Below are positions 50,333 to 64,000 of a stretch of DNA of 64,000 bases, one piece after another (position 1 is the stretch's first letter; each line of letters begins with the position of its first letter). The stretch lies in the NCBI RefSeq assembly GCF_964204645.1, contig NC_134028.1, positions 18,262,153-18,326,152 on the forward strand, read 5' to 3'. Origin of the DNA: Tubulanus polymorphus. Its lineage: Eukaryota > Nemertea > Palaeonemertea > Tubulaniformes > Tubulanidae. Made by a program: the position numbers and the translations under genes. The notes beneath the pieces were generated by a model. It saw only the letters and a program-made list of their open reading frames with translations. It searched no databases and was not told the DNA's origin.

Positions 50333-50594
50333 GGCGGATCTAGGGACAGTGGGACCCGAGAGACCACGGCCCATCCTCCTCGAAGTTCCGATCGTTTATT
50401 TCTTATTTTCCCACTGTCGTGCCCCTACTTGCGAGTTGTGGTGCAAATATCTACTCATTTCCTCTTGAATAAGTGCTGAAATGCAGGAAATTGCACAATT
50501 GTGCACATGGAATATGCTATATTCTGCTGGCGGATGACCCCCAGATCCTCCACCCTGTCTTTCGCGCCTATTACACGACAGCCCTAGATCCGCC
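50333..50594. mobile_element. Small MITE, GGCGGATCTAGGG ends
   Basis: GGCGGATCTAGGGACAG at the left and its inverted form (CCCTAGATCCGCC) at the right bound 262 bases without coding frame. A hAT-like identity is possible, but no duplication was defined. Confidence 0.65.
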
Positions 50595-50702
50595 CCTGAG
50601 ACAGGCAGAGCAATCAGAAGAGAAAAAAATCAATAGATGCTTATAAAATGTATTATGAAATAAGATAAAATTTTTGAATAAAGTGAATTTGACGCGTCGA
50701 TT

Positions 50703-51905
50703 GACGCATTGTTTGCCTACTTGACTGTTGACCGGTTCATTTTCAGGGCCCTCGAGATCTCTACCCTTTTTCAGCCAGAATGGCTTTTGTTTCCTGATCC
50801 GGTCCCAAGTTTCCATCCAGACATCTTGGTTACTGGGAGCCGCTGAGCACACAAAGTCCCTCCGCCATGTAGGAGCCTTTATTGCAGATCGAGGTCGGAG
50901 TCGTCCCATGGCCGGTTGTCCCTCATCTACCGATTCTCCGTCAGATTCACCGTGTTCTGAGGCGGTTTCCTCAGCGAGAGTCGGTATCTCAGCTCGAGCA
51001 GGTGTTTCGGCTTGAATCCATCCATTCCGAGGGTCCGGTTCCATCGGGATCTACTGATCCTCTTCCTCCTCCTCTGAACTCGAAGAACTATGTCCTAGTG
51101 CGACCGGGTAATACTTCATGGTGCCGTGCCTAGTGGAGGTAGGTTTGTTTTTGGGGGAACCTGGGGGTTTTTAACATCATCCACCCTAATTATGGCCGGT
51201 TTCATGTCGTTGAAGTGGGCAACATTGATCTTGGTCTTTCCTGACAAAGACTCCACCCGATAATTTACCTCAATCCGGCACTGTGTAACCAAAAACGGGC
51301 CATACCACTTCCCGTGGAATTTCGGGGCCTCTCCAGGCTTGACATAGTGACTGTATAGCCAGACTCTGTCTCCCACTTGATAGCCTCCACATGATGTGAA
51401 TCTGTCATAATACTGTCGCTGGCGCCTTTGGGCAACAGTCAATCTCTCCCTGACTGCATTATATGCAGATTTAATTCGGCCTGCAAAACACCGAGCGTAT
51501 TCTGCTGTGGACTGATCTTGTCGTGAATAAGATTATCAGTTATAATGTATTATATTGTTATATAAAATTGTAGAACTTCAAACAATTGTCGAACTGCGTG
51601 AACTATAAGACTGTACTGAGCCTTTAACTGTAACTGTAACTATTCAACTGTATCTGTGCATTCCTCTGTAAATACGGAATAGAATTCTATAGTATGTGTG
51701 ACATTAACAGAAAACCACGTAGTCGTTCGGTCGTTCGTTCTCTATCTCTCTCTGCTTACCGGTCGGACCTACCCCTCCTGAGGACAGATCTGGCTCCGGG
51801 CTACCCACCATCGGATCAATCTGGAGACTCATTTCACGTCCAAATGTCAAAAAGGATGGGGTTTCCTGTGTTGATGACTAGACACTCGGTCGGAATGCCA
51901 TGCTT
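50703..51905 (-). pseudogene. Gypsy integrase C-terminal half
   Basis: Reading leftwards from 51905 the frames give MAFRPSV and then SFLTFGREMSLQID (the GREM block). At 51442-51116 follows the SH3-like C-terminal domain (QYYDRFTSCGGYQVGDRVWL, GPFLVTQCRIEVNYRVESLS), ending in a Pro/Arg-rich tail (MGRLRPRSAIKAPTWRRDFV). Frameshifts lie near 51690, 51880 and 51060. The domain binds DNA during integration. Confidence 0.82.
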
Positions 51906-52068
51906 TCTAATTCTCGTCAACTGTCACCTATCACCGTCAGCTTTAACCCTAAGATACCATAAGTATCATATATGATACGTCCATTTTGCCAAAAAAAAAT
52001 TTTTCTTCAGCAAAATCACATATCTATGGATTATATTCAAAAAGGTGCCTCAAAGACCGGTTGTATCA

Positions 52069-52698
52069 GTAATAGGGGTAATGGGCTTTCAAGCCAAAGG
52101 TCGAACGGTCGAGCTCATTAAAAACAAATGTTAAAAGTAATTTAAAACTATAATATATTTTCATAACCGTGTGCATTTTATATTATAACTAAATATTTAT
52201 TCTAAGATATCAATAATTTAAATTTAAAAAGCATATTGTATTAAATCAATTGGTCGCTCCACTTCGCTACCGCTCCGCTCCGCGACCAATTGATTTATTT
52301 ACAATACACAAATTCATATAATCAAATATATTGTAATAATAATTATTATTCTATTATTCAACTGAAATGCACACGGTTATGAAAATATATTATAGTTTTA
52401 AATTACTTTTAATATTTGTTTTTAATGAACTCGACCATTGAACCTTTAACCTGAAAGCCCATTACCCCTATTACTCTTAAAATAATCATATACATGAATA
52501 ACATTTAAATTGACAGATTATTCAATATAAAAGTGTGAGCTCTTATAGAATATATAGATAGATATATTTACAACATTATTTCAATATTTATATTTGTATG
52601 AGTCAGATTTTTAAACATTAAAAGTGTTAGTAAAGTGTGATTGAAATAATACATATTTAAATCATTGAACTTCTAAAATCTATTTTAATAAAAAATTT
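52069..52698. repeat. Polinton left terminal inverted repeat with palindromic outer part
   Basis: The first 406 bases (52069-52474) are palindromic. Arm 1 (52069-52178) pairs with arm 2 (52365-52474), both starting GTAATAGGGGTAATGGGCTT from the outside. Between them are two unpaired AT-rich blocks and a GC-rich centre bounded by CAATTGGTCGC (52247-52257) and GCGACCAATTG (52282-52292). The remaining bases to about 52698 match the right repeat in inverted form, except for an extra stretch of about 25-30 bases near 52535-52560. Confidence 0.9.
52526..52532 (+). promoter_or_regulatory. Candidate TATA box in left TIR
   Basis: CAATATAAAAGTG occurs at the same place in both repeats of this element (right copy at 60517-60523, minus strand) and in the second element near 63942. 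It lies about 150-180 bases before the first start codon of each arm. Conservation in all three copies and orientation support a promoter role; this is inference. Confidence 0.35.
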
Positions 52699-52707
52699 AG
52701 TATTAAA

Positions 52708-53136
52708 ATGGAAGCAAATAAGTACTACTGCCCAACATGTAATATCAATATAGATAAATCCCAAAAAGCAAGACACAATAAAACTAAAACACATTTAGAG
52801 AATAAATTGAAACTAGAATATAAAGATGATATATTAGAAACTAAATTAGATGAATTAAAGAATGAAAAAGAAACATACAAATGTGATACATGTAATCAAT
52901 CATTCAGTGATAAAAGATATTATAATGAACATTTAAAATCTAAAAGTCGTATTAGAAATAAGAATAATGATATTTTAGGTGAAGATTATTTTGATAAAGA
53001 TAATGATAAGAAACAGAAGACAATTAAAAGCATAAAAAATAAATTAAACAATAAAAGACCATACATGGAAGATGTAAGAAATTATATTAATTCATTGGAT
53101 AATAAAAAAAGATATAGAGATAACCGAAGCATTTAA
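52708..53136 (+). CDS. Polinton zinc-finger protein or N-terminus of the polymerase, 142 aa
   Basis: The frame starts ten bases inside the TIR and encodes two C2H2-like fingers: CPTCNINIDKSQKARHNKTKTH (residues about 9-30) and CDTCNQSFSDKRYYNEH (about 55-75). A Lys-rich region follows. From about 53100 the polymerase N-terminal region continues in another frame with no gap. It may therefore be the N-terminal DNA-binding part of the polymerase split by a frameshift, or a separate small protein. I favour a fused origin, moderately. Confidence 0.65.
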   Translation: MEANKYYCPTCNINIDKSQKARHNKTKTHLENKLKLEYKDDILETKLDELKNEKETYKCDTCNQSFSDKRYYNEHLKSKSRIRNKNNDILGEDYFDKDNDKKQKTIKSIKNKLNNKRPYMEDVRNYINSLDNKKRYRDNRSI

Positions 53137-56065
53137 AAGTGATATTGGCCCAGCAGCTATCGAGTTTAAATTTCATAAAGGTAAAACATTAGAAGAAAAT
53201 AAAAAACATTTAGAAAATATGAAAGAAATAATAAAAATAATAACTGATGTTGAATATCCTAAAATAAGTATATCTTCTAAAGTTAAATTCATAAAATCTG
53301 AAGATAAACCAATATATAATATAAATTCTCATTCACAACATATTATATCTAAACAACATATAGATGATAAATTAGATAAATGTTATAATGAAGTAAAAAC
53401 TAAAATAGAAGAGAAATATTTTGAAGGATCTGGTTTAATATTTGATGAGATAATATTTATGACTTTACATGTTTATAACACAAAATATAATAAGTTAACT
53501 AAATCAAAACCAATTGATGAAAATAATAATAATCATATTATAAAGAACCAGATATTGAAGCATCGAGTTATATCAAACTACCATTTAAAACTAATGCTGT
53601 AATAAATGTACAAAATGAAGATGATAAATGTTTTCTATCGGCTATAATAAGTTGTTTACACCCAGTTGAAGATTATAAACAACATAGTTTTAGATTAACT
53701 CATTATAAACCATTTGAAAATAATTATAATATAGATAAGTATCCTGTTATAATTAAAAACATCCCAAAAATAGAAAGAGATAATAATTTGAGAATAAATG
53801 TATTTGATTTAATCAAATTACCAAATACAAAAGGTAACAACATAAAATATGATACATTAGAACCTTTATACCTATCAAAAGATTATGATTCAAACGATGT
53901 TATAGATATACTATATTATGAGAATCATTATATGTGGATTAAAAAAATCGATTTATTTTTTAAATCAGAAAATGATCACCATAAAATATATCTTTGTAGA
54001 AAATGTTTACATAGATTCAGTAATGAAAGTACATTATTAAATCATAAACAATTATGTGAAAATCACGATTATTGTAAATTAGTTTTACCAAATGAAAAGG
54101 ATAAAATATTAGAATTCAAAAAATATGATTACAAAAATAAAGTACCATTTGTAATATATGGAGATTTTGAATCATTAAATAAAGAACTAACTGATCAAGA
54201 TAGAAAAGAAATATATTATAAGAGAAAGAAATTAAATTCTAATGAAAATGATTATTCTGAAGAACCACCAAAAACAAATACTATTAAAAAGATTCATCAA
54301 TCAGCTGCTGCTTTCGGGTTATATATTAAATCTGATTATCCAGAACTAATTGAGAGTGAATATTATCATTATAGAAATGAAAATGTTATCAATCATTTTT
54401 GTGACTTATTAATTGAATATGAAATAAAATTTAATGAAAAGTTAAATAAAAATATAGAAATTATAATGACAGAAGAAGATAAAGAAGAATTTGCGTTTGC
54501 AGATAAATGTTATTATTGTGAAAAGATATTTAATTATAAAGATAAAAAAGTAAGAGACCATGATCATTTGAACGGAAAGTTTAGAGGCGCTGCACATGAG
54601 AATTGAAACTTACAAGCTAAGAAAATTAACTTTGTACCAGTTATATTTCATAATCTATCAGGATACGATGCTCATTTATTCATCAAACAGTTATGTTATA
54701 AAATAGAAGAAATTAATAATGAAATAGAAAGATTAAATTCAAATAGATCAAAAGATAAAATACCAACTTATAAATTTAGAATGTTAGCTAAAACATCTGA
54801 GAATTATATATCATTCCAATTTGGTTGCCTAAGATTTATAGATTCATATAGATTTTTAAATAGTTCATTAGATAACTTATCAAAATCATTAGTTGATGAT
54901 GAATTAAAAATATTAAAGCAACACTACCCAAATAATGATGATTTTCAATTAATGAGATATAAAGGAGCAATTCCATATTCATTTTATAAATCACATAATG
55001 ATTTTAACATTACTGAATTATTGAAAGAACAATTCTATGATGAATTAAAAAATGAATATGTTAAAGATGAAGTCTATAATAGAAAATTGAATATTTGGAA
55101 TCATTTCAAAATAGAAAATCATGGACAATTAGTAGATTTATATCTAAAATCAGATGTATTATTATTAACCGATATATTCGAAAGGTTTAGAGATTTAAAC
55201 CTAAAATATTTTAACATTGATCCTTGTCATTGTTATTCTAGTCCAGGTTTAACATGGGATTGTGGATTAAAATTTACGGATATAAAAATGGATTTGTTAA
55301 CAAATATAGATCAATTACTATTATTTGAAAAATCTATAAGAGGAGGAGTTTCAGGTGTATTAGGTGATAGATATTTCAATGTAAATGATAACCCTGGATA
55401 TAAGTTATTATATATAGATGCAAATAATCTAGATATTGCAGATGATTCAGATACTGGTTACTTTTTTGTTGTAGATTTAGAATATCCTGAACATATTAAA
55501 TTTAAATCTAGAAATCTAGCTTACTGTCCCAAACATAAAACCGTAACTCATGAAGAATTATCAAATTATCAAAAAAGAATTAAACCCGAAAATAACATTC
55601 ATACAGAAAAGTTAATGGTAACTCAAGAAGATAAATATAATTATGTAGTACATTATAGAATGTTAAAGTTTTATCTAAAACAAGGAATGATCTTAAAAAA
55701 AGAACATAGATATATTTCATTTAGCCAATCTAAGTGGTTAGAAAAATATATAGATTTTAACACCAAACAGAGAACTAAAGCTAAAACTTGATTTCGAGAA
55801 AGATTTCTTCAAGTTAATGAATAATGCATTCTATGGCAAGACTTGTGAAATTAATAAAAATAGAAATGATATTGAGTTAGTTAGTAATGGTAAAAGGATA
55901 AGGCATTTACAATCATATCCTAAATTTATAGGTAACAGAATATTTGATGAAAATTTAGCCGCCGTTAAGATGAGAAGAACATCAATGAAATTTAATAAAC
56001 CAATCTATGTTGGCGCTTCAGTTTTAGAATTATCAAAATTACTAATGTATGAATGTATTGTGTAA
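53100..56065 (+). pseudogene. Protein-primed-type family B DNA polymerase (Polinton PolB), broken
   Basis: The N-terminal region has GSGLIFDEIIFMTLHVYN (about 53420-53475) and a C2H2-like finger (CRKCLHRFSNESTLLNH, 53995-54060). Exonuclease I is YGDFES (54157-54174) and the Cys/His block KVRDHDHLNGKFRGAAH follows. Exonuclease II is FHNLSGYDAH near 54648 and exonuclease III YLKSDVLLLTD at 55141. Motif A is YIDANNL at 55411 and motif B NNAFYGKT at 55820. Breaks: frame changes near 53105 and 53540-53790, a stop at 54604-54606, loss of the residues usually following NNL, and a stop plus frame change near 55789-55817. The frame ends LSKLLMYECIV at 56065; the catalytic DTDS motif C is absent. The enzyme would copy the element's DNA in the nucleus. 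Confidence 0.9.
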
Positions 56066-56813
56066 CAAACGTCCCATATAAATTATTCCAAACTATTTCT
56101 GAATTATCTTCTTTTCTAGCTTGTATAGGTTTCATATTTATAGAACTATGTTTAGAATTATTATAACCTTTCATTAAATCATCTAACACATCGATATATT
56201 TAGATGTTTCATTAGCAGTAAAATATTTCCACATTCTAGTTTTCAATGTTTTATTAAATCTTTCTATAATAGATGCTTTTTTATCTGAATGTGTTGAAAA
56301 ATAATCTACATCGTTATCAGATAATAGTTTTTTAAAATGTTTGTTATAGAATTCCTTACCTTCATCAAATTGTATCTTATCTGGAATAGCTTCTTTAAAT
56401 ATAGATTTAAAAGCATTTGTTACTTCTATTCCAGTTTTATTTTTGATTGGAATTGACCATGCGTATCTACTGAATATGTCTATAACATTTAATATCCAGA
56501 AATATCCTTTGTTGTATTCCTCTAAGTTCTTCATGTCAATTAAATCAGCTTGCCATTGTTGATCCATATATGAAACCATAACTTTTCTTGTTAAATAAGT
56601 TTTATCCATTTTCTTGTGGATTTGATATGTTGGTTGATTTTGTAACCATGATTTCAATTCACTATATTTTATGCCACCATGTGGGTGCCATACGGCACCA
56701 TTACCATTTTCTTTATCAGATTTAATTTTATCCCATAATTCTGAAACGTTAGAATATGATACTTCACTTTCTGGGTTGTAATATAAATCTCTTAAATATT
56801 GTTCTTTTTTCAT
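55992..56813 (-). CDS. Polinton retroviral-type integrase, C-terminally truncated
   Basis: The 273-codon frame is open. The N-terminal part matches the Polinton integrase lead (WHPHGGIKYSELKSWL, residues about 42-57). Catalytic residues are Asp90 in QADLIDM, Asp150 in IQFDEGKEF and Glu184 in SIIERFNKTL, about 33 residues after Asp150. The usual chain continues to ARKEDNSEIVWNNLYG and then changes to an unrelated tail that is antisense to the polymerase, so the C-terminal DNA-binding domain is lost. It would insert the excised element, giving the target duplication. Four bases separate it from the 122-residue protein upstream on the same strand. Confidence 0.88.
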   Translation of the reverse strand: MKKEQYLRDLYYNPESEVSYSNVSELWDKIKSDKENGNGAVWHPHGGIKYSELKSWLQNQPTYQIHKKMDKTYLTRKVMVSYMDQQWQADLIDMKNLEEYNKGYFWILNVIDIFSRYAWSIPIKNKTGIEVTNAFKSIFKEAIPDKIQFDEGKEFYNKHFKKLLSDNDVDYFSTHSDKKASIIERFNKTLKTRMWKYFTANETSKYIDVLDDLMKGYNNSKHSSINMKPIQARKEDNSEIVWNNLYGTFVTQYIHTLVILIILKLKRQHRLVY

Positions 56814-56819
56814 CTTATT

Positions 56820-57188
56820 TTAATCCATTAATAATAATCTAGATTTAGTTTCAATGGTTTTATGATTTGACTTATTTTCTGGTATAATAGCTTTATTGTC
56901 ATTGGAATCATATTTATCATCAGATTTGAATTTTGATTTATATATTACACCGGATAATATAATAACTGTTACTAATCCAATTGTAATATATAATTTATAA
57001 TTACTTTCAGCATTAGAAGAATTAGATGGATTATTATTTGAATCAATATCAGATATAGTCTGTGATTCATTTATATCAGTTAATTTCTTTTTCTTAGTTT
57101 TTTTTAATTCTGAAGATCTTTTACCTAATTCTCTTGCCCATTTAATTTGTTTTTCAGATTTAGCCTTTTTCTTAACGCTATCACTCAT
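56820..57188 (-). CDS. Small Polinton protein with one membrane segment, 122 aa
   Basis: The N-terminus is strongly basic (VKKKAKSEKQIKWARELGKR). A Ser/Asn-rich spacer follows, then a hydrophobic helix at about residues 66-83 (YITIGLVTVIILSGVIYK) and a charged tail. The basic head might bind nucleic acid or the integrase product, but this is a guess. The frame is intact and lies between the integrase and the 194-residue protein, 9 bases from the latter, in a likely co-transcribed set. No family is recognised. Confidence 0.6.
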   Translation of the reverse strand: MSDSVKKKAKSEKQIKWARELGKRSSELKKTKKKKLTDINESQTISDIDSNNNPSNSSNAESNYKLYITIGLVTVIILSGVIYKSKFKSDDKYDSNDNKAIIPENKSNHKTIETKSRLLLMD

Positions 57189-57197
57189 TTATTTTAG

Positions 57198-57782
57198 TTA
57201 ATTTTTGTTCTGATTCATTTTCTGTTTCGACGTTTGGTTGTAGTACATCTGTTTCGTTCTTACCTGATTATATTCCATAGGTTTGATGTTCGAAAATGTT
57301 ATGACGCCAGTAGAAATTAATGTCATAACCGATCCTAATTGAAATGAAGCATAACCAACCCATTTTTGTAATTCAGTCATAACTAAGTAGTCATTTTTCA
57401 AATCACTATATAATTTATTTTCATCATTAATTGGTATTAACTGGTTACATAATGTTGAATAACATTTGACAATACCATCTGAAATAGAATCATTTATTCT
57501 AGCTAATCTAGCTTCTTCATAAATCTTAAAATATTTTATTACTTTATCGGGTTTCATAGCATCTAATTCTTGAAAAGTAATTATTTTCCCGATAAACTGA
57601 TTACATTTCCCGCCAGCAATTAATAATTCTAGATGGTGTTTACAATATAAATAGTATTCATAATCAATATTACAATTAACTTGAGCACAATTAGTTACAA
57701 CTGTATCTTTATTATCACTTATACCCAAATCATCTAATGTCTTTTCAATATCAATAATATTCTTATTAGATTTCTTTGACAT
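57198..57782 (-). CDS. Unknown Polinton protein, 194 aa
   Basis: The frame is open from a Met after an AT-rich leader. It has several Cys residues in the first third (NCAQVNC, then YCKHHLELL), a long helical middle with Arg/Lys/Glu, and a hydrophobic stretch at about residues 142-163 (VGYASFQLGSVMTLISTGVI). The C-terminus is Asn/Gln-rich. It might be a minor structural or membrane-related protein of the parent virus-like element, but no sequence match is recognised. Being intact while the polymerase is broken, it deserves note. Confidence 0.55.
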   Translation of the reverse strand: MSKKSNKNIIDIEKTLDDLGISDNKDTVVTNCAQVNCNIDYEYYLYCKHHLELLIAGGKCNQFIGKIITFQELDAMKPDKVIKYFKIYEEARLARINDSISDGIVKCYSTLCNQLIPINDENKLYSDLKNDYLVMTELQKWVGYASFQLGSVMTLISTGVITFSNIKPMEYNQVRTKQMYYNQTSKQKMNQNKN

Positions 57783-58759
57783 TTATATTAGAGAAAAAAA
57801 GCAAAAAAAAATATTATAAGTATTCTTCAAATGATACTAGCTAGTTAAGCTAAAGAATTTTAGTATTGACTACTGATACTAGCTATTTGAATTTAAAGAA
57901 TCTCTATTTGAATCTATTCAAAATATAAAGTATTCTCTTTTTGAAAAGAAAATATTAAAAATATAATAGAATTCACTAGCAGTTGAAGTTATTGTTTTTT
58001 TATTATATTTTATTTAAATTAGGATTTAATATCACCATGTGGGTGCCGTACGGCACCATCTCACTACTATTGTCTATCTATTAGGAGCAGTAATTATAAC
58101 TGTCCAGATAAGTCATTTCGGATCCTCGATAATAAATCCTTAACTGAAAATAAATTCAAAGAAACGACTGGTGGAATTACTATTTCATAAACACATATAT
58201 TTATTATGTAAATTTTAGCGATCAATAATAGAACAATGGGGAACAATAGAAATGCGGTCCAATCGGACCGGTTATTGCGCAATACACAGTTATATTTTTA
58301 TTCTGTAAACTACAACATTCAAACATAGAAATGTAACCAATCAATATTGAGCAGCTGTTTCCGTCAACAACGATCAATAGTAGAACAATGGAGAACAATA
58401 GAAAAGCGGTTCAATCGGACCGGTTATTGCGCAATACACTGTTAACAGTAAACAATCAATACAGAACAACCGCCGCCATTAACAACGATCAATAATAGAA
58501 CAATGGAGAACAATAGAAAAGCGGTTCAGTCGGACCGGTTATTGCGCAATACACAGTTTACAGTAAACAATACAATATTAAAACAGATATATACAATCGA
58601 GATTACATTTTTTGATATCTATATTACAAAGACCTTCAGTGTTATAATTTATAATTTTGTCCAGAATTCTTTAATTACTGGATTGTTTCCAATCATTTCT
58701 TCAATTTCTGGCAAATATCTGACTACTTCACTAAATGCTAATCCTAATATTTTGAATTT
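57783..58759. other. Non-coding part of the Polinton with three repeat units
   Basis: From 57790 to 58210 the sequence is AT-rich without frames. GGTGCCGTACGGCACC, a perfect 16-base palindrome, lies at about 58043-58058 inside a segment that resembles part of the integrase gene (56672-56704). Three repeat units then follow and the rest to 58759 has no clear gene. Confidence 0.6.
58220..58574. repeat. Three direct repeats with a CCGGT core in the Polinton
   Basis: Units at 58220-58292, 58371-58458 and 58486-58574 share GATCAATAATAGAACAATGG, then CGGTTCAATCGGACCGGTTA, then TTGCGCAATACACAGTT. The parts between also resemble each other (CAATCAATA.., CAACAACGATC). Each unit contains short palindromes (TTGCGCAA, ACCGGT). 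They may be protein-binding sites or an origin, but no function is shown. Confidence 0.8.
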
Positions 58760-59378
58760 TTAATATTTTATTAATCTACCTACTCTTCTCAGTTTTCTTT
58801 CAAAACCGGCACTGATATCTATGTTCTTTTTAACCCACAGCCCCCAAGAAATCCCCTCAGTTTCTTTATCAAACATTGAAAACCCTATATTTAGATAACC
58901 CCCGAAAATGATGTGGTCCCATAGGTGATTTGCTTTTCTATTTAATATGGTTTTATAACTTTTTTTAAAGATATCAGTAATTTCAGCAAATGAAATAACT
59001 TCTACACTTTGTATTTCCGGAAAGTTTAAATGTTCTGTGTCAATGATTAATTTAGATTTTAAAAACTCGTTCAACTCTTCTCCACTCATTTTCTTAGTTT
59101 TCGATTCTTTAAGTCCCAACAGCAATTTAAGTCGCGTTGCTGGTAATTTTGGTAATTGTAGTTCGCGCGGTAATTGTTTATTATGTATTACATCACTCAG
59201 AATTTTCACCATTTCTTGATGATAATCCAAATGTTCTTGTAAGTTTTTGTGAAGTTTGTTCGTCAATTACGAGAGTTTCATCCTCCATTTCTATTGATTC
59301 CTGAGTTTCCCTATCCAGCAGCAATCGTTCCTCACCCGTTGGTTGGCTTAGAATTTCTGGTTGATCTCTGTATTCCAT
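58760..59378 (-). pseudogene. Unknown Polinton protein, frame broken near 59200-59266
   Basis: An acidic N-terminal frame (59378 downwards, MEYRDQPEILSQPTGEERLL) and a longer frame (59266 down to 58760, 168 codons) overlap and look like one original protein. The second holds a charged helical region (NLQEHLDYHQEMVKILSDVI) and an end with LWDHIIFGGYLNIGFSMFDK and GFERKLRRVGRLIKY. No family is recognised. The acidic-to-helical layout and length suggest a minor structural or accessory protein; this is weak. Confidence 0.5.
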
Positions 59379-59726
59379 TTTAATCTAAAAGATGTCGTGA
59401 AAATGAATTACTGTACTTAAATATGTTTAAAGGTTTCCCTACTTCATAATAACTACAAAAAACGGTACTTACATTTAGATTTAGAACTGTAAACTGTGTT
59501 TTGAGAGAGAATATCCAATACGTACTATGTATGTGAAAGTTGATTTCTAACTGCCGACGTGGCGCACGTTCGACCAAACTAATTATTTCTGCACAGATGT
59601 TCTTTATGATGAAGTTAATTAATTCTTTAGAATTGAAAACAAGATATATTTGGCAACATATGTTTTAGTAGTAAGCAAAAGCTATGTATTATAGACATAC
59701 AAAGCTCAAATAGAATTGCCAGCTTT

Positions 59727-60367
59727 CTAACCACTGATTAAAACCTCAGAATGCGGTTGATTCTGTGAAATACTATTCCATAATTCAACAAATGTCTTTG
59801 CTTTATCCAGTTGATCTAAATATAACTGTAAATCTAGTTTATTAGATTTAATTATGTTTTCCTTCTTTTCTAAAGGCCTTAAATTTTTCCAGTTCCATAT
59901 TAGCTTCTTATTATAATCATCACTCATGTCAAATTTAGAAATAGGCAACACGTGATCAATATGAAAGTATTCACCATAATTATCTATATTCATTTTATCA
60001 TCGAATTGATATATTATCCATGATTTTAAGAATTCATCTGAACAACCCAATAAATTAAATAGTGTTTCTGAATGTGTTTCTTTGTTGAATAATTGTGTTA
60101 ATCTAGTCCTTAAGCATTGTTTCGATCTAAAATTAAGATCTGTTTGATATCTTTCTCTCATATATTCTGTCATATAATCATTATAAGCTTCTCTATTATC
60201 TTCTCTGTATTGTTTGGTATATAGTTTAAAACAAGTTTTACAGCAATATTGAAAACCATCTTTGCTAATCTTACGCTTACTAAATTCTGTTAAAGCTTCT
60301 TGTGGTATATATTTATGATGCCAGTGTTATTTGTAATATTGATAATTTGCGGTTGTTCTGGTTCCAT
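59727..60367 (-). pseudogene. HNH-type homing-like endonuclease of the Polinton
   Basis: The part from 60173 down is open for 148 codons and has FHIDHVLPISKFDMSDDYNK, then NWKNLRPLEKKENIIKSNK, which gives the His-Asp-His, Asn and Asn/Lys residues of a His-Me finger nuclease. Upstream in the same frame a CCKTC zinc-like motif (around 60240) fits the family. A start codon at 60367, just inside the TIR, is in another frame, so one indel lies near 60310. HNH nucleases nick or cut DNA and are found in giant-virus and phage mobile genes; here it is the first gene of the right arm. Confidence 0.8.
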
Positions 60368-60371
60368 TTAT

Positions 60372-60980
60372 TATACATATTTTTTTACTAAATTGATTTT
60401 AGAAGTTCAATGATTTATATCATGCATTATTTCAATCACACTTTACTAACACTTTTAATGTTTAAAAATCTAACTCACACAAATATAAATATTCAAATAA
60501 TGTTGTAAATATATACTTTTATATTGAATAATCTGTCAATTTAAATGTTATTCATGTATATGATTATTTTAAGAGTAATAGGGGTAATGGGCTTTCAGGT
60601 TAAAGGTTCAATGGTTGAGTTCATTAAAAACAAATATTAAAAGTAATTTAAAACTATAATATATTTTCATAACCGTGTGTATTTCAGTTGAATAATAGAA
60701 TAATAATTATTATTAAAATATATTTGATTATATGAATTTGTGTATTGTAAATAAAGCAATTGGTCGCGGAGCGGAGCGGTAGCGAAGTGGAGCGACCAAT
60801 TGATTTAATACAATATGCTTTTTAAATTTAAGTTATTGATATCTTAGAATAAATATTTAGTTATAATATAAAATGCACACGGTTATGAAAATATATTATA
60901 GTTTTAAATTACTTTTAACATTTGTTTTTAATGAGCTCGACCGTTCGACCTTTGGCTTGAAAGCCCATTACCCCTATTAC
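60372..60980. repeat. Polinton right terminal inverted repeat with palindromic outer part
   Basis: Inverted copy of 52069-52698 with few differences. Its palindrome covers 60575-60980, with the same GC-rich centre (GCGGAGCGGAGCGGTAGCG). Each coding arm begins just inside the repeat (52708 and 60367), so the repeats probably hold the promoters. Confidence 0.9.
60517..60523 (-). promoter_or_regulatory. Candidate TATA box in right TIR
   Basis: Counterpart of the site at 52526-52532, facing the HNH gene start at 60367. Confidence 0.35.
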
Positions 60981-61714
60981 TTGTATCATTCCTGATACAG
61001 ATAAGTGCTTCCCTCTATCTAGTCATTTGTGAACTAAATCCAAAAATGGTAACTTTCTGTCTGCTTGAATGATCATAAGAGTCATAAAGTCAAAAGTTTT
61101 AGGTCACACTACGAAACGAGGTGAGTTTACATATAAATCTAAGCATTATTTCAATCAATAAAAGTATGGAGAATACTAGGGAATGATGTATTGTATATTG
61201 CAACGATTTTACAACTGAGTACAGGTGAATCATAACATGTTGTATCAGATATGATACAGTCGGTATATCTGTCAACAATTTACAAAAAAATAAAGATTGA
61301 TTTTTGAAATGGATTGTTTATTTCAGGACATTCTACTATCGCATCTATTGTAATAAAATCAGTTTTGACGAACTTGATTCAATTTTGGACGTTCTTTCAT
61401 TTTCTTACGTGAAATGCTCCATATGCAAGGTCCACCTGTGCCTCAATAAGGACAGAAACTGCTTTTTAGCGTATCACAAGTGAAAATCCTGTATCCAATT
61501 AAAGTTCTTAATAAAGAAAAACTTTATTTGAATCTGAAAATTTTTATTTAATTTTGTCAAGTAAAACCGGTTGTATCAGATCTGCTACAGGACCTAATTT
61601 TGGCCCAGTCAATTTTTAAGACATTTCTCTTCAAATGACACCTTCCTGAATATAGAAATATGAGTGACATAATTTTAAGACGCTGGCTTCATAGTTTAGG
61701 CTTCTTAGGGTTAA

Positions 61715-63385: not shown

Positions 63386-63467
63386 CTGGTCCAGAAGAGC
63401 GGTCAATGATACCAGCTTAGATGACTCTCCCTGATGTTTTATGGCCTGAATGGTCATATCAACAGCA
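63386..63467 (-). pseudogene. OB-fold-like protein exon, cut by a Polinton
   Basis: The minus strand encodes VDMTIQAIKHQGESSKLVSL and ends LLDQ|GTGAGT, which joins in phase with the exon at 62924-63130. The open frame runs straight into the terminal repeat of the second Polinton at 63468, so the upstream part of this exon is separated by the insertion. The gene is therefore disrupted on this chromosome. Confidence 0.55.
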
Positions 63468-64000
63468 GTAATAGGGGTTTAGTTGTTCTATACCAAAGGT
63501 CGAACGGTCGAGCTCATTAAAAACAAAATATTAAAAGTAATTTAAAACTATAATATATTTTCATAGCCGTGTGTATTTTATATTATTACTAAATATTTAT
63601 TCTAAGATATTAATAATTTAAATTTTAAAAGCATATTGTATTAAATCAATTGGTCGCTCCGCTTCGCTAAAGCTCCGCTCCGCGACCAATTGATTTATTT
63701 ACAATACACAAATTCATATAATCAAATATATTCATAATAATAATTATTCTATTATTTAACTAAAATACACACGGTTATGAAAATATATTATAGTTTTAAA
63801 TTACTTTTAATATTTGTTTTTAATGAGCTCGACCATTCAACCTTTAGTATAGAACAACTAAACCCCTATTACTCTTAAAATATTTATATACATGAATAAA
63901 ATATATATGAATAACATATAAATTGATAGATTATTCAATATAAAAGTGTTAGTAAAAAAGTAACGAGTAATTAACGAGCTCTTATAGAATAGATATATAG
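63468..64000. mobile_element. Second Polinton/Maverick-like copy, left end
   Basis: The sequence repeats the terminal repeat of the first element. The palindrome covers 63468-63872 with the same GC-rich centre. The inner bases to the window end share CAATATAAAAGTG and GAGCTCTTATAGAATA with the left end of copy 1. The outermost bases differ (GTAATAGGGGTTTAGTTGTT against GTAATAGGGGTAATGGGCTT), but they differ equally in both arms. The body lies outside the window. Confidence 0.88.

Follow-up and report, generated by a model that had tools for sequence, protein, structure and literature searches.

Polintons (Mavericks) are defined by long terminal inverted repeats (TIRs) with 5'-AG...CT-3' ends, and are regarded as pivotal in the past of eukaryotic DNA viruses; the replication of their ends has been inferred rather than seen. 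This article describes a Polinton family of the nemertean Tubulanus polymorphus in which each TIR begins with a long palindrome, starting from one copy in a window of 64,000 nucleotides (the whole stretch of DNA analysed; contig NC_134028.1, positions 18,262,153 to 18,326,152). The borders of this copy, its flanking target-site duplications (TSDs) and the parts of its TIRs are as follows.

52062..52067, no strand: left TSD, TGTATC, read from the sequence
52068..60981, no strand: Polinton element, an internally deleted copy, recognized by its AG...CT termini, TIRs, TSD, gene pieces and comparison with a longer copy
52068..52475, plus strand: left terminal palindrome, 408 bp, AGTAATAG...CTATTACT, from self-comparison and DNA folding
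52247..52292, plus strand: GC-rich core hairpin of the left palindrome, CAATTGGTCGC...GCGACCAATTG, where breakpoints cluster in other copies
52476..52696, plus strand: inner, non-palindromic part of the left TIR, from self-comparison
60379..60573, minus strand: inner, non-palindromic part of the right TIR, from self-comparison
60574..60981, minus strand: right terminal palindrome, 408 bp, a mirror of the left with orientation relative to the element unchanged
60757..60802, minus strand: core hairpin of the right palindrome, read from the sequence
60982..60987, no strand: right TSD, TGTATC, an exact match to the left TSD

The right palindrome is 98.8% identical to the left, and in each of them the arms are 91% complementary (52061-52178 with 52365-52482 on the left, 60574-60684 with 60871-60981 on the right). 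The TIR measures 467 bp at 99% identity (52068-52534 and 60515-60981) and extends at lower identity as far as 52696 and 60379. Folded as DNA, a palindrome strand reaches -120.7 kcal/mol, compared with -29.3 +/- 4.2 kcal/mol for 100 dinucleotide shuffles (z = -21.6), and the palindrome is therefore not a product of chance. GC content per kilobase is 21-32% in the element and 30-46% in the two to three flanking kilobases on each side. A sequence-only reading of the window had described palindromic TIRs and proposed self-alignment of the element with its genomic copies and folding of its single-stranded ends as checks; the computed fold agreed with it, the alignment located the palindrome at both ends and throughout the family, and a long imperfect palindrome at each end stands, with the borders corrected to 52068 and 60981 and the length to 408 bp.

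Between the TIRs, the gene pieces comprise the following open reading frames (ORFs) and a deletion junction.

52708..56054, plus strand: broken PolB pieces (zinc-finger N-terminus, Endonuclease_7-like motif, DNA_pol_B_2 part) with no C-terminus, from translation, Pfam and the longer copy
55992..56813, minus strand: ORF with rve integrase, C-terminally truncated (PF00665, E 9e-10); below about 56059 the ORF runs into the PolB end
56054..56059, no strand: internal-deletion junction, from blastn of the window against L059/L060; the PolB-integrase segment including the ATPase is removed
57198..57782, minus strand: ORF with a similar ORF in the longer copy, from ORF comparison
59727..60173, minus strand: HNH-like ORF, a weak Pfam match (PF13395, E 0.34 in the window and 0.011 in the longer copy)

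The window copy is defective, its PolB being spread over several frames without a C-terminus and its integrase lacking the C-terminal part. Against a longer copy of 19 kb (L059/L060, with ends L022/L024; C1:14237008-14255995), the window element lacks the C-terminal parts of PolB and of the integrase as well as everything that lies between the two. The rve integrase (PF00665) lies above cut-off in both copies. At the C-terminus of the longer-copy integrase is a chromodomain match below cut-off (PF00385, E 8e-5, 22.9 bits against 25.1), in a part that is deleted from the window integrase, and the longer copy also encodes an A32/FtsK-like packaging ATPase (PF04665, E 4e-11), the corresponding region of which is missing from the window copy. 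Its PolB is an ORF of 1343 amino acids with the Endonuclease_7-like motif; DNA_pol_B_2 matches the window PolB piece at E 2e-5, 2 bits under cut-off, and was not reported by Pfam for the 1343-residue ORF. The PolB label is supported by 4,866 homologues out of 7,994 proteins scored (of the 120 listed, some are labelled PF03175) and by conserved acidic residues (D485, E487, D903, D1167 and D1169, invariant in 12 aligned sequences); judged by its sequence, the polymerase is of the protein-primed type that characterizes Polintons. The Endonuclease_7 domain was considered as a marker of palindromic ends and rejected, since the label is common among PolB relatives and is listed for other Mavericks; the part of the literature consulted includes a weak listing of such a domain in the PolB of Spodoptera Mavericks (PMC5803895).

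A Pfam scan covered 19 ORFs of longer copies (17 of the 18 ORFs of one and two of another), in which neither a Rep/NS1-type nickase-helicase nor a telomere-resolvase family was matched at E <= 0.1, and neither a capsid nor an adenovirus-like cysteine protease gave a Pfam match. One capsid candidate is a 462-residue ORF at L060:955-2340 (minus strand) with 125 homologues (relatives P0164-P0283). Its relative P0164, the one candidate modelled, gave a helix-rich structure with a mean predicted local distance difference test (pLDDT) of 81, for which no fold match was found at E <= 0.001 in viral or PDB libraries; the conserved protein could possibly be an unrecognized structural protein. In summary of its kinship, the family resembles Polintons/Mavericks (polintoviruses, adintoviruses) in its 6-bp TSD, AG...CT ends, TIRs of several hundred bp, common size of 17-19 kb, rve integrase with a weak chromodomain match, PolB with an Endonuclease_7-like domain and A32-like ATPase, but differs from them in that a long palindrome makes up about two-thirds of the TIR and in that a double-jelly-roll capsid was not recognized among the scanned ORFs.

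Terminal palindromes across the genome

The genome searched comprises 267.8 Mb in 77 contigs; a search for COX1 gave no match. The 40 best-scoring of 1,382 candidate copies, a non-random set that includes both ends of the window element, all align with the query forwards and, over the palindrome, backwards as well. Genome-wide, the arm terminus (up to two mismatches) has 814 + 815 = 1,629 matches, each full palindrome contributing two, compared with 0 + 0 for a control. Among the first loci retrieved are 50 full palindromes with lengths of 152, 189-194, 235, 268-269, 291, 343-345, 379-413, 449 and 533 bp and with differing cores; in a set of 132 complete palindromes, chosen for the interior sequence adjoining them, AG occupies positions 1-2 of both arms in 129 ends. 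The identification, made in the sequence-only reading, of a Polinton with a protein-primed-type PolB and TIRs led by a palindrome is supported; the element also has an rve integrase, and the palindrome is conserved throughout the family. The same reading would have been abandoned had copies with ordinary TIRs revealed the palindrome as a secondary addition, which proved not to be the case: ends with an incomplete palindrome are a minority and look derived.

Elements with complete palindromes at both ends are an integrated form. They are accompanied by an exact 6-bp TSD in 31 elements, that of the window included, from which it follows that the integrase inserts the palindrome whole; six other neighbouring pairs of left and right ends have one TSD mismatch (four pairs) or four or five (two pairs). 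The paired copies measure 16.9-19.5 kb in 21 of 31 cases and range from 5.4 to 36.2 kb in a list without the window's position. Within one element, the palindromes of the two ends differ in length by a mean of 2.5 bp and have a median identity of 98.5%, five of the 31 pairs being identical, whereas 200 random pairs of class-A ends have a median of 93.3% and a maximum of 99.3%; the two ends of one element are thus kept alike. At C1:15187706-15273403, three of the ends L043, L044, L080 and L081 have the flank TCGGGT in common, and their layout is suggestive of recombination, or of an inverted duplication, between elements that lie next to each other. Listed copies on C1, C2, C3 and C10 seem to lie mostly in the middle of large contigs, perhaps in pericentromeric positions. 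Relatives with comparable ends were sought in viral or prokaryote collections by five scans, three of them empty, which provided 21 distant and fragmentary loci. No inverted repeat was found in 20 of these; the sole one found, at L205, lies inside an integrase-like gene.

Orientation, arm differences and breakage

The orientation of the palindrome is fixed. Each of the 50 full palindromes matches that of the window better in the forward than in the reverse direction, although in the short classes the difference is small, and genome-wide the commonest terminal motif has 414 matches to the normal inner junction and 20 to the reversed one. Judged by their letters, 11 of these 20 have normal or mixed arms at the inner junction and six have host letters before the outer arm; L197 proved on reading to be host sequence, and C10:7880480 has a mixed arm in a locus that was left unread. 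At L196 (match C4:14345114; C4:14345080-14345540), the palindrome is flanked on both sides by element sequence, truncated on each; it resembles a head-to-head junction and is the one clear two-sided palindrome. L148 and L152, candidates of the same kind from a concatemer scan of the retrieved loci, were rejected, as the second side is host sequence resembling the interior. The GTTTAG motif, searched in the normal form alone, has 86 normal inner junctions. In L164 the core loop alone is inverted, and two more exact matches to the inverted pattern were left unread. On the 50 palindromes and the genome-wide patterns of the commonest motif, flip/flop was rejected as a routine event. As a mode of replication, the parvovirus-type hairpin or hairpin telomere to which the sequence-only reading likened the ends is not supported, the signature of both orientations being nearly absent and the 19 scanned ORFs containing no Rep/NS1 or telomere-resolvase match.

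Sequence changes go in step between the two arms of a palindrome, and likewise between the ends of one element. Arm positions 1-10 are nearly invariant in outer and inner arms alike. The 14 letters after AGTAATAGGG are identical between the arms in 99 of 132 ends, differ once in 28 and more often in five, and nine versions of the terminal motif occur as matched pairs, one in 79 ends and the others in 1-5 ends each. Mismatches between an end's own arms average 0.553 per 24 bp, compared with a mean of 2.306 and a minimum of 1.886 in 1,000 shuffles, and mutual information exceeds that of all 200 shuffles at positions 11-20, 22, 25, 26, 39, 47, 48 and 50. Since related copies share ancestry, this co-variation counts subfamilies and not independent events.

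Certain differences between the arms are persistent. At positions 27, 28, 35, 39 and 47, the arms are unequal in 94, 105, 131, 116 and 104 of 132 ends, and the outer arm has C where the inner has T in 91, 101, 128, 88 and 99. A few copies (L028, L077, L007 and L001) have arms homogenized for a long distance; L026 and L028 are the two ends of one element, of which L028 is homogenized and L026 is not. Arm differences of transition type would form G-T pairs on the strand with the 3' terminus in 799 cells versus 143 (13 positions versus 4), with 269 cells of transversions. This bias is suggestive only, because common ancestry and mutation bias would look alike.

The centre of the palindrome is a preferred breakpoint. 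Half ends were surveyed in the first 100 exact matches among 429 hits, a non-random sample from C1 to C4 only, all of which were read. The outer terminus is kept in 88 (74 by motif and 14 by reading, two of the latter with small deletions). Another 11 have their first base 5-49 nt before GCGACC on an arm of about 212 nt, which places it in the core or no more than 14 nt away, and in the last one (L125) the cut lies at a different point of the outer arm. For six half ends a presumed partner could be read; in none of them does the exact TSD of that partner occur within 15 bp, and the closest imperfect fits are 5/6 for L035 and 4/6 for L037 and L133. The inner arm, surveyed in 37 places among the first 100 exact of 372 outer-arm matches, is lost at the core more rarely than the outer, in L184 and in a 4.9-kb derivative, L173/L174 (C2:15272690-15277229), from which it is gone at both ends with one and the same junction and which is flanked by the TSD TTCATC; L186 on C3 is a third end with this junction, and three such ends exist genome-wide. 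Four further inner-arm cuts lie off the core, 133-172 nt past its start.

Replication of the ends

The account that we favour, and to which we give about an even chance, is that of a Polinton lineage whose TIRs have turned into long hairpin-forming palindromes, a shape preserved in many copies, which would be kept as a working structure while the ends are copied linearly by protein priming. The genome would be linear, and a protein-primed PolB would most likely copy it from one terminus to the other; such copying would reproduce the whole palindrome without flipping. Fixed orientation together with fixed arm mismatches points to each round copying the end unchanged, as protein priming would, and the conserved terminal site in both arms, with their co-variation, suggests that arm pairing matters at some stage. 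This pairing would most simply occur on displaced single strands: strand displacement would free them and each end could fold on itself, offering the conserved AGTAATAGGG site of the terminus in duplex form to the polymerase, a terminal protein or the integrase, and perhaps protecting the element end. The hairpin might act in place of, or beside, an end-to-end panhandle as described for the bidnavirus BmBDV, a protein-primed relative, and occasional fold-back copying within it might homogenize the arms; local homogenization and core-loop inversion fit hairpins that form at times.

Several points weigh against this account. Protein priming, a terminal protein, a stage with single strands, the folding of hairpins within cells and the function of the palindrome are inferred, the co-variation of the arms reflects subfamilies, and the G-T bias could be explained by mutation bias. 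The inequality of position 35 in 131 of 132 ends and of the four others in 94-116 implies that hairpin-templated copying is not routine, and some insertions can do without the inner arm, L173/L174 having a TSD despite its loss. A stronger version, which is on balance unlikely, would make the hairpin an obligatory step in a protein-primed, integrase-carrying Polinton, such that hairpins of displaced strands rebuild duplex terminal sites or prime themselves from the 3' end and a junction-cutting activity, possibly the Endonuclease_7-like domain of PolB, restores extended ends in one fixed orientation. If end-folding were obligatory in this way, the mode of replication would stand between the adenovirus type and the parvovirus type.

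The palindrome might instead be non-adaptive, the inner arm having arisen by snap-back copying of the terminus and a functionless hairpin being maintained by fold-back copying or gene conversion. Discrete palindrome classes with different cores (152, 189-194, 268-269, 343-345 and about 404-413 bp) suggest repeated formation, the arms are homogenized in four copies, and the derivative without an inner arm was still able to insert. We nevertheless consider such an origin unlikely, as the persistent C/T differences at the five arm positions argue against routine re-copying of one arm from the other, and the outer terminus is kept in 88 of 100 sampled ends despite the fragility of palindromes. Rolling-hairpin replication of the parvovirus kind, or hairpin-telomere replication as in poxviruses, is improbable. 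The half-palindromes joined to host sequence at the core (11 of 100) look as if hairpin-capped molecules had been inserted, the partner's exact TSD is found in none of the six testable half ends, and L196, with element on both sides, is head-to-head-like; against these stand the 414 normal junctions, with L196 alone clear among the 20 reversed matches and C10:7880480 unread, the host sequence on the second side of L148 and L152, and the want of a Rep/NS1-like match in the 19 ORFs.

Half ends, and perhaps all of the hairpin signs, could also stem from cruciform breakage after insertion at a fragile site, which would be uninformative on replication. The concentration of junctions at the core, the absence of the exact TSD in all six testable half ends and the loss at the core of inner arms as well (L184; the L173/L174/L186 derivative) are what breakage would leave, and it accounts well for half ends but not for the co-variation of the arms or the likeness of the ends; as a complete explanation it is very improbable, and it can be compatible with the favoured account of working palindromes on protein-primed ends. 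That the palindrome was an independent fold-back or miniature inverted-repeat transposable element that landed at the ends of a Polinton is hardly credible. The palindrome itself has AG...CT at both of its borders, but interior subterminal sequence adjoins it in all 30 loci retrieved by arm pattern alone (L009-L038, partly overlapping), with no solo palindrome there, and palindrome-bearing ends have 6-bp TSDs of Polinton type; on those 30 loci this origin was rejected.

Among known systems, parvoviruses have terminal hairpins, replicate by a rolling-hairpin mechanism and display both hairpin orientations at one end or more. The present elements share with them long imperfect terminal palindromes and a GC-rich inner hairpin, but differ in the lack of flip/flop, in the lack of a Rep/NS1-like match among the 19 ORFs, in their integrase-type TSDs and in being double-stranded DNA elements commonly of 17-19 kb. 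Poxviruses have hairpin telomeres with covalently closed ends; hairpin-forming ends within TIRs are a likeness to them, and fixed orientation a difference. Bidnaviruses (BmBDV), which combine a PolB from polintoviruses with a parvovirus capsid and helicase, are similar in their polintovirus-type PolB and inverted terminal repeats and dissimilar in that their repeats are without terminal palindromes. Bidnavirus repeats are reported to be free of such palindromes and to adopt a panhandle in their place (PMC4938981, PMC4061559), self-priming with hairpin transfer is reported not to be the way in which BmBDV replicates (PMC4938981), and hairpin-forming ends are reported within the TIRs, ca. 100 kb long, of giant viruses (PMC12747079). 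Palindromic or hairpin-forming Polinton ends were not met with in the literature searched, to which the founding Polinton papers and the adintovirus paper did not belong, nor are palindromic Polinton ends reported in the portions consulted of PMC11071308, PMC6431247, PMC11071296, PMC12721341, PMC12220804 and PMC6723459; an earlier mention is possible.

As BmBDV is reported to have a panhandle and no terminal palindromes, two designs of end can be compared side by side, and the family provides a natural setting in which elements with protein priming can be compared with parvoviruses and other viruses whose ends are hairpins. A fold-back shape of roughly 150-450 bases that many copies conserve while its letters change hints that replication includes a step with which Polintons are not usually credited. 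The family is young, as seen in the five of 31 paired elements with identical left and right palindromes, and is present in hundreds of places, making the replication of its ends testable.

Neighbouring features of the window

A further member of the family lies downstream of the element, at the window's edge.

63467..63873, plus strand: terminal palindrome of a second copy, of the GTTTAGTTGTTCTA type in both arms, belonging to another subfamily whose element runs past the window edge, from sequence comparison

From 63467 to 64000, this second Polinton copy begins with its own matched palindrome and continues beyond the window. Elsewhere in the window, the ORFs at 49-1512 and 50571-51442 (-) are presumably pieces of Ty3-type retroelements.

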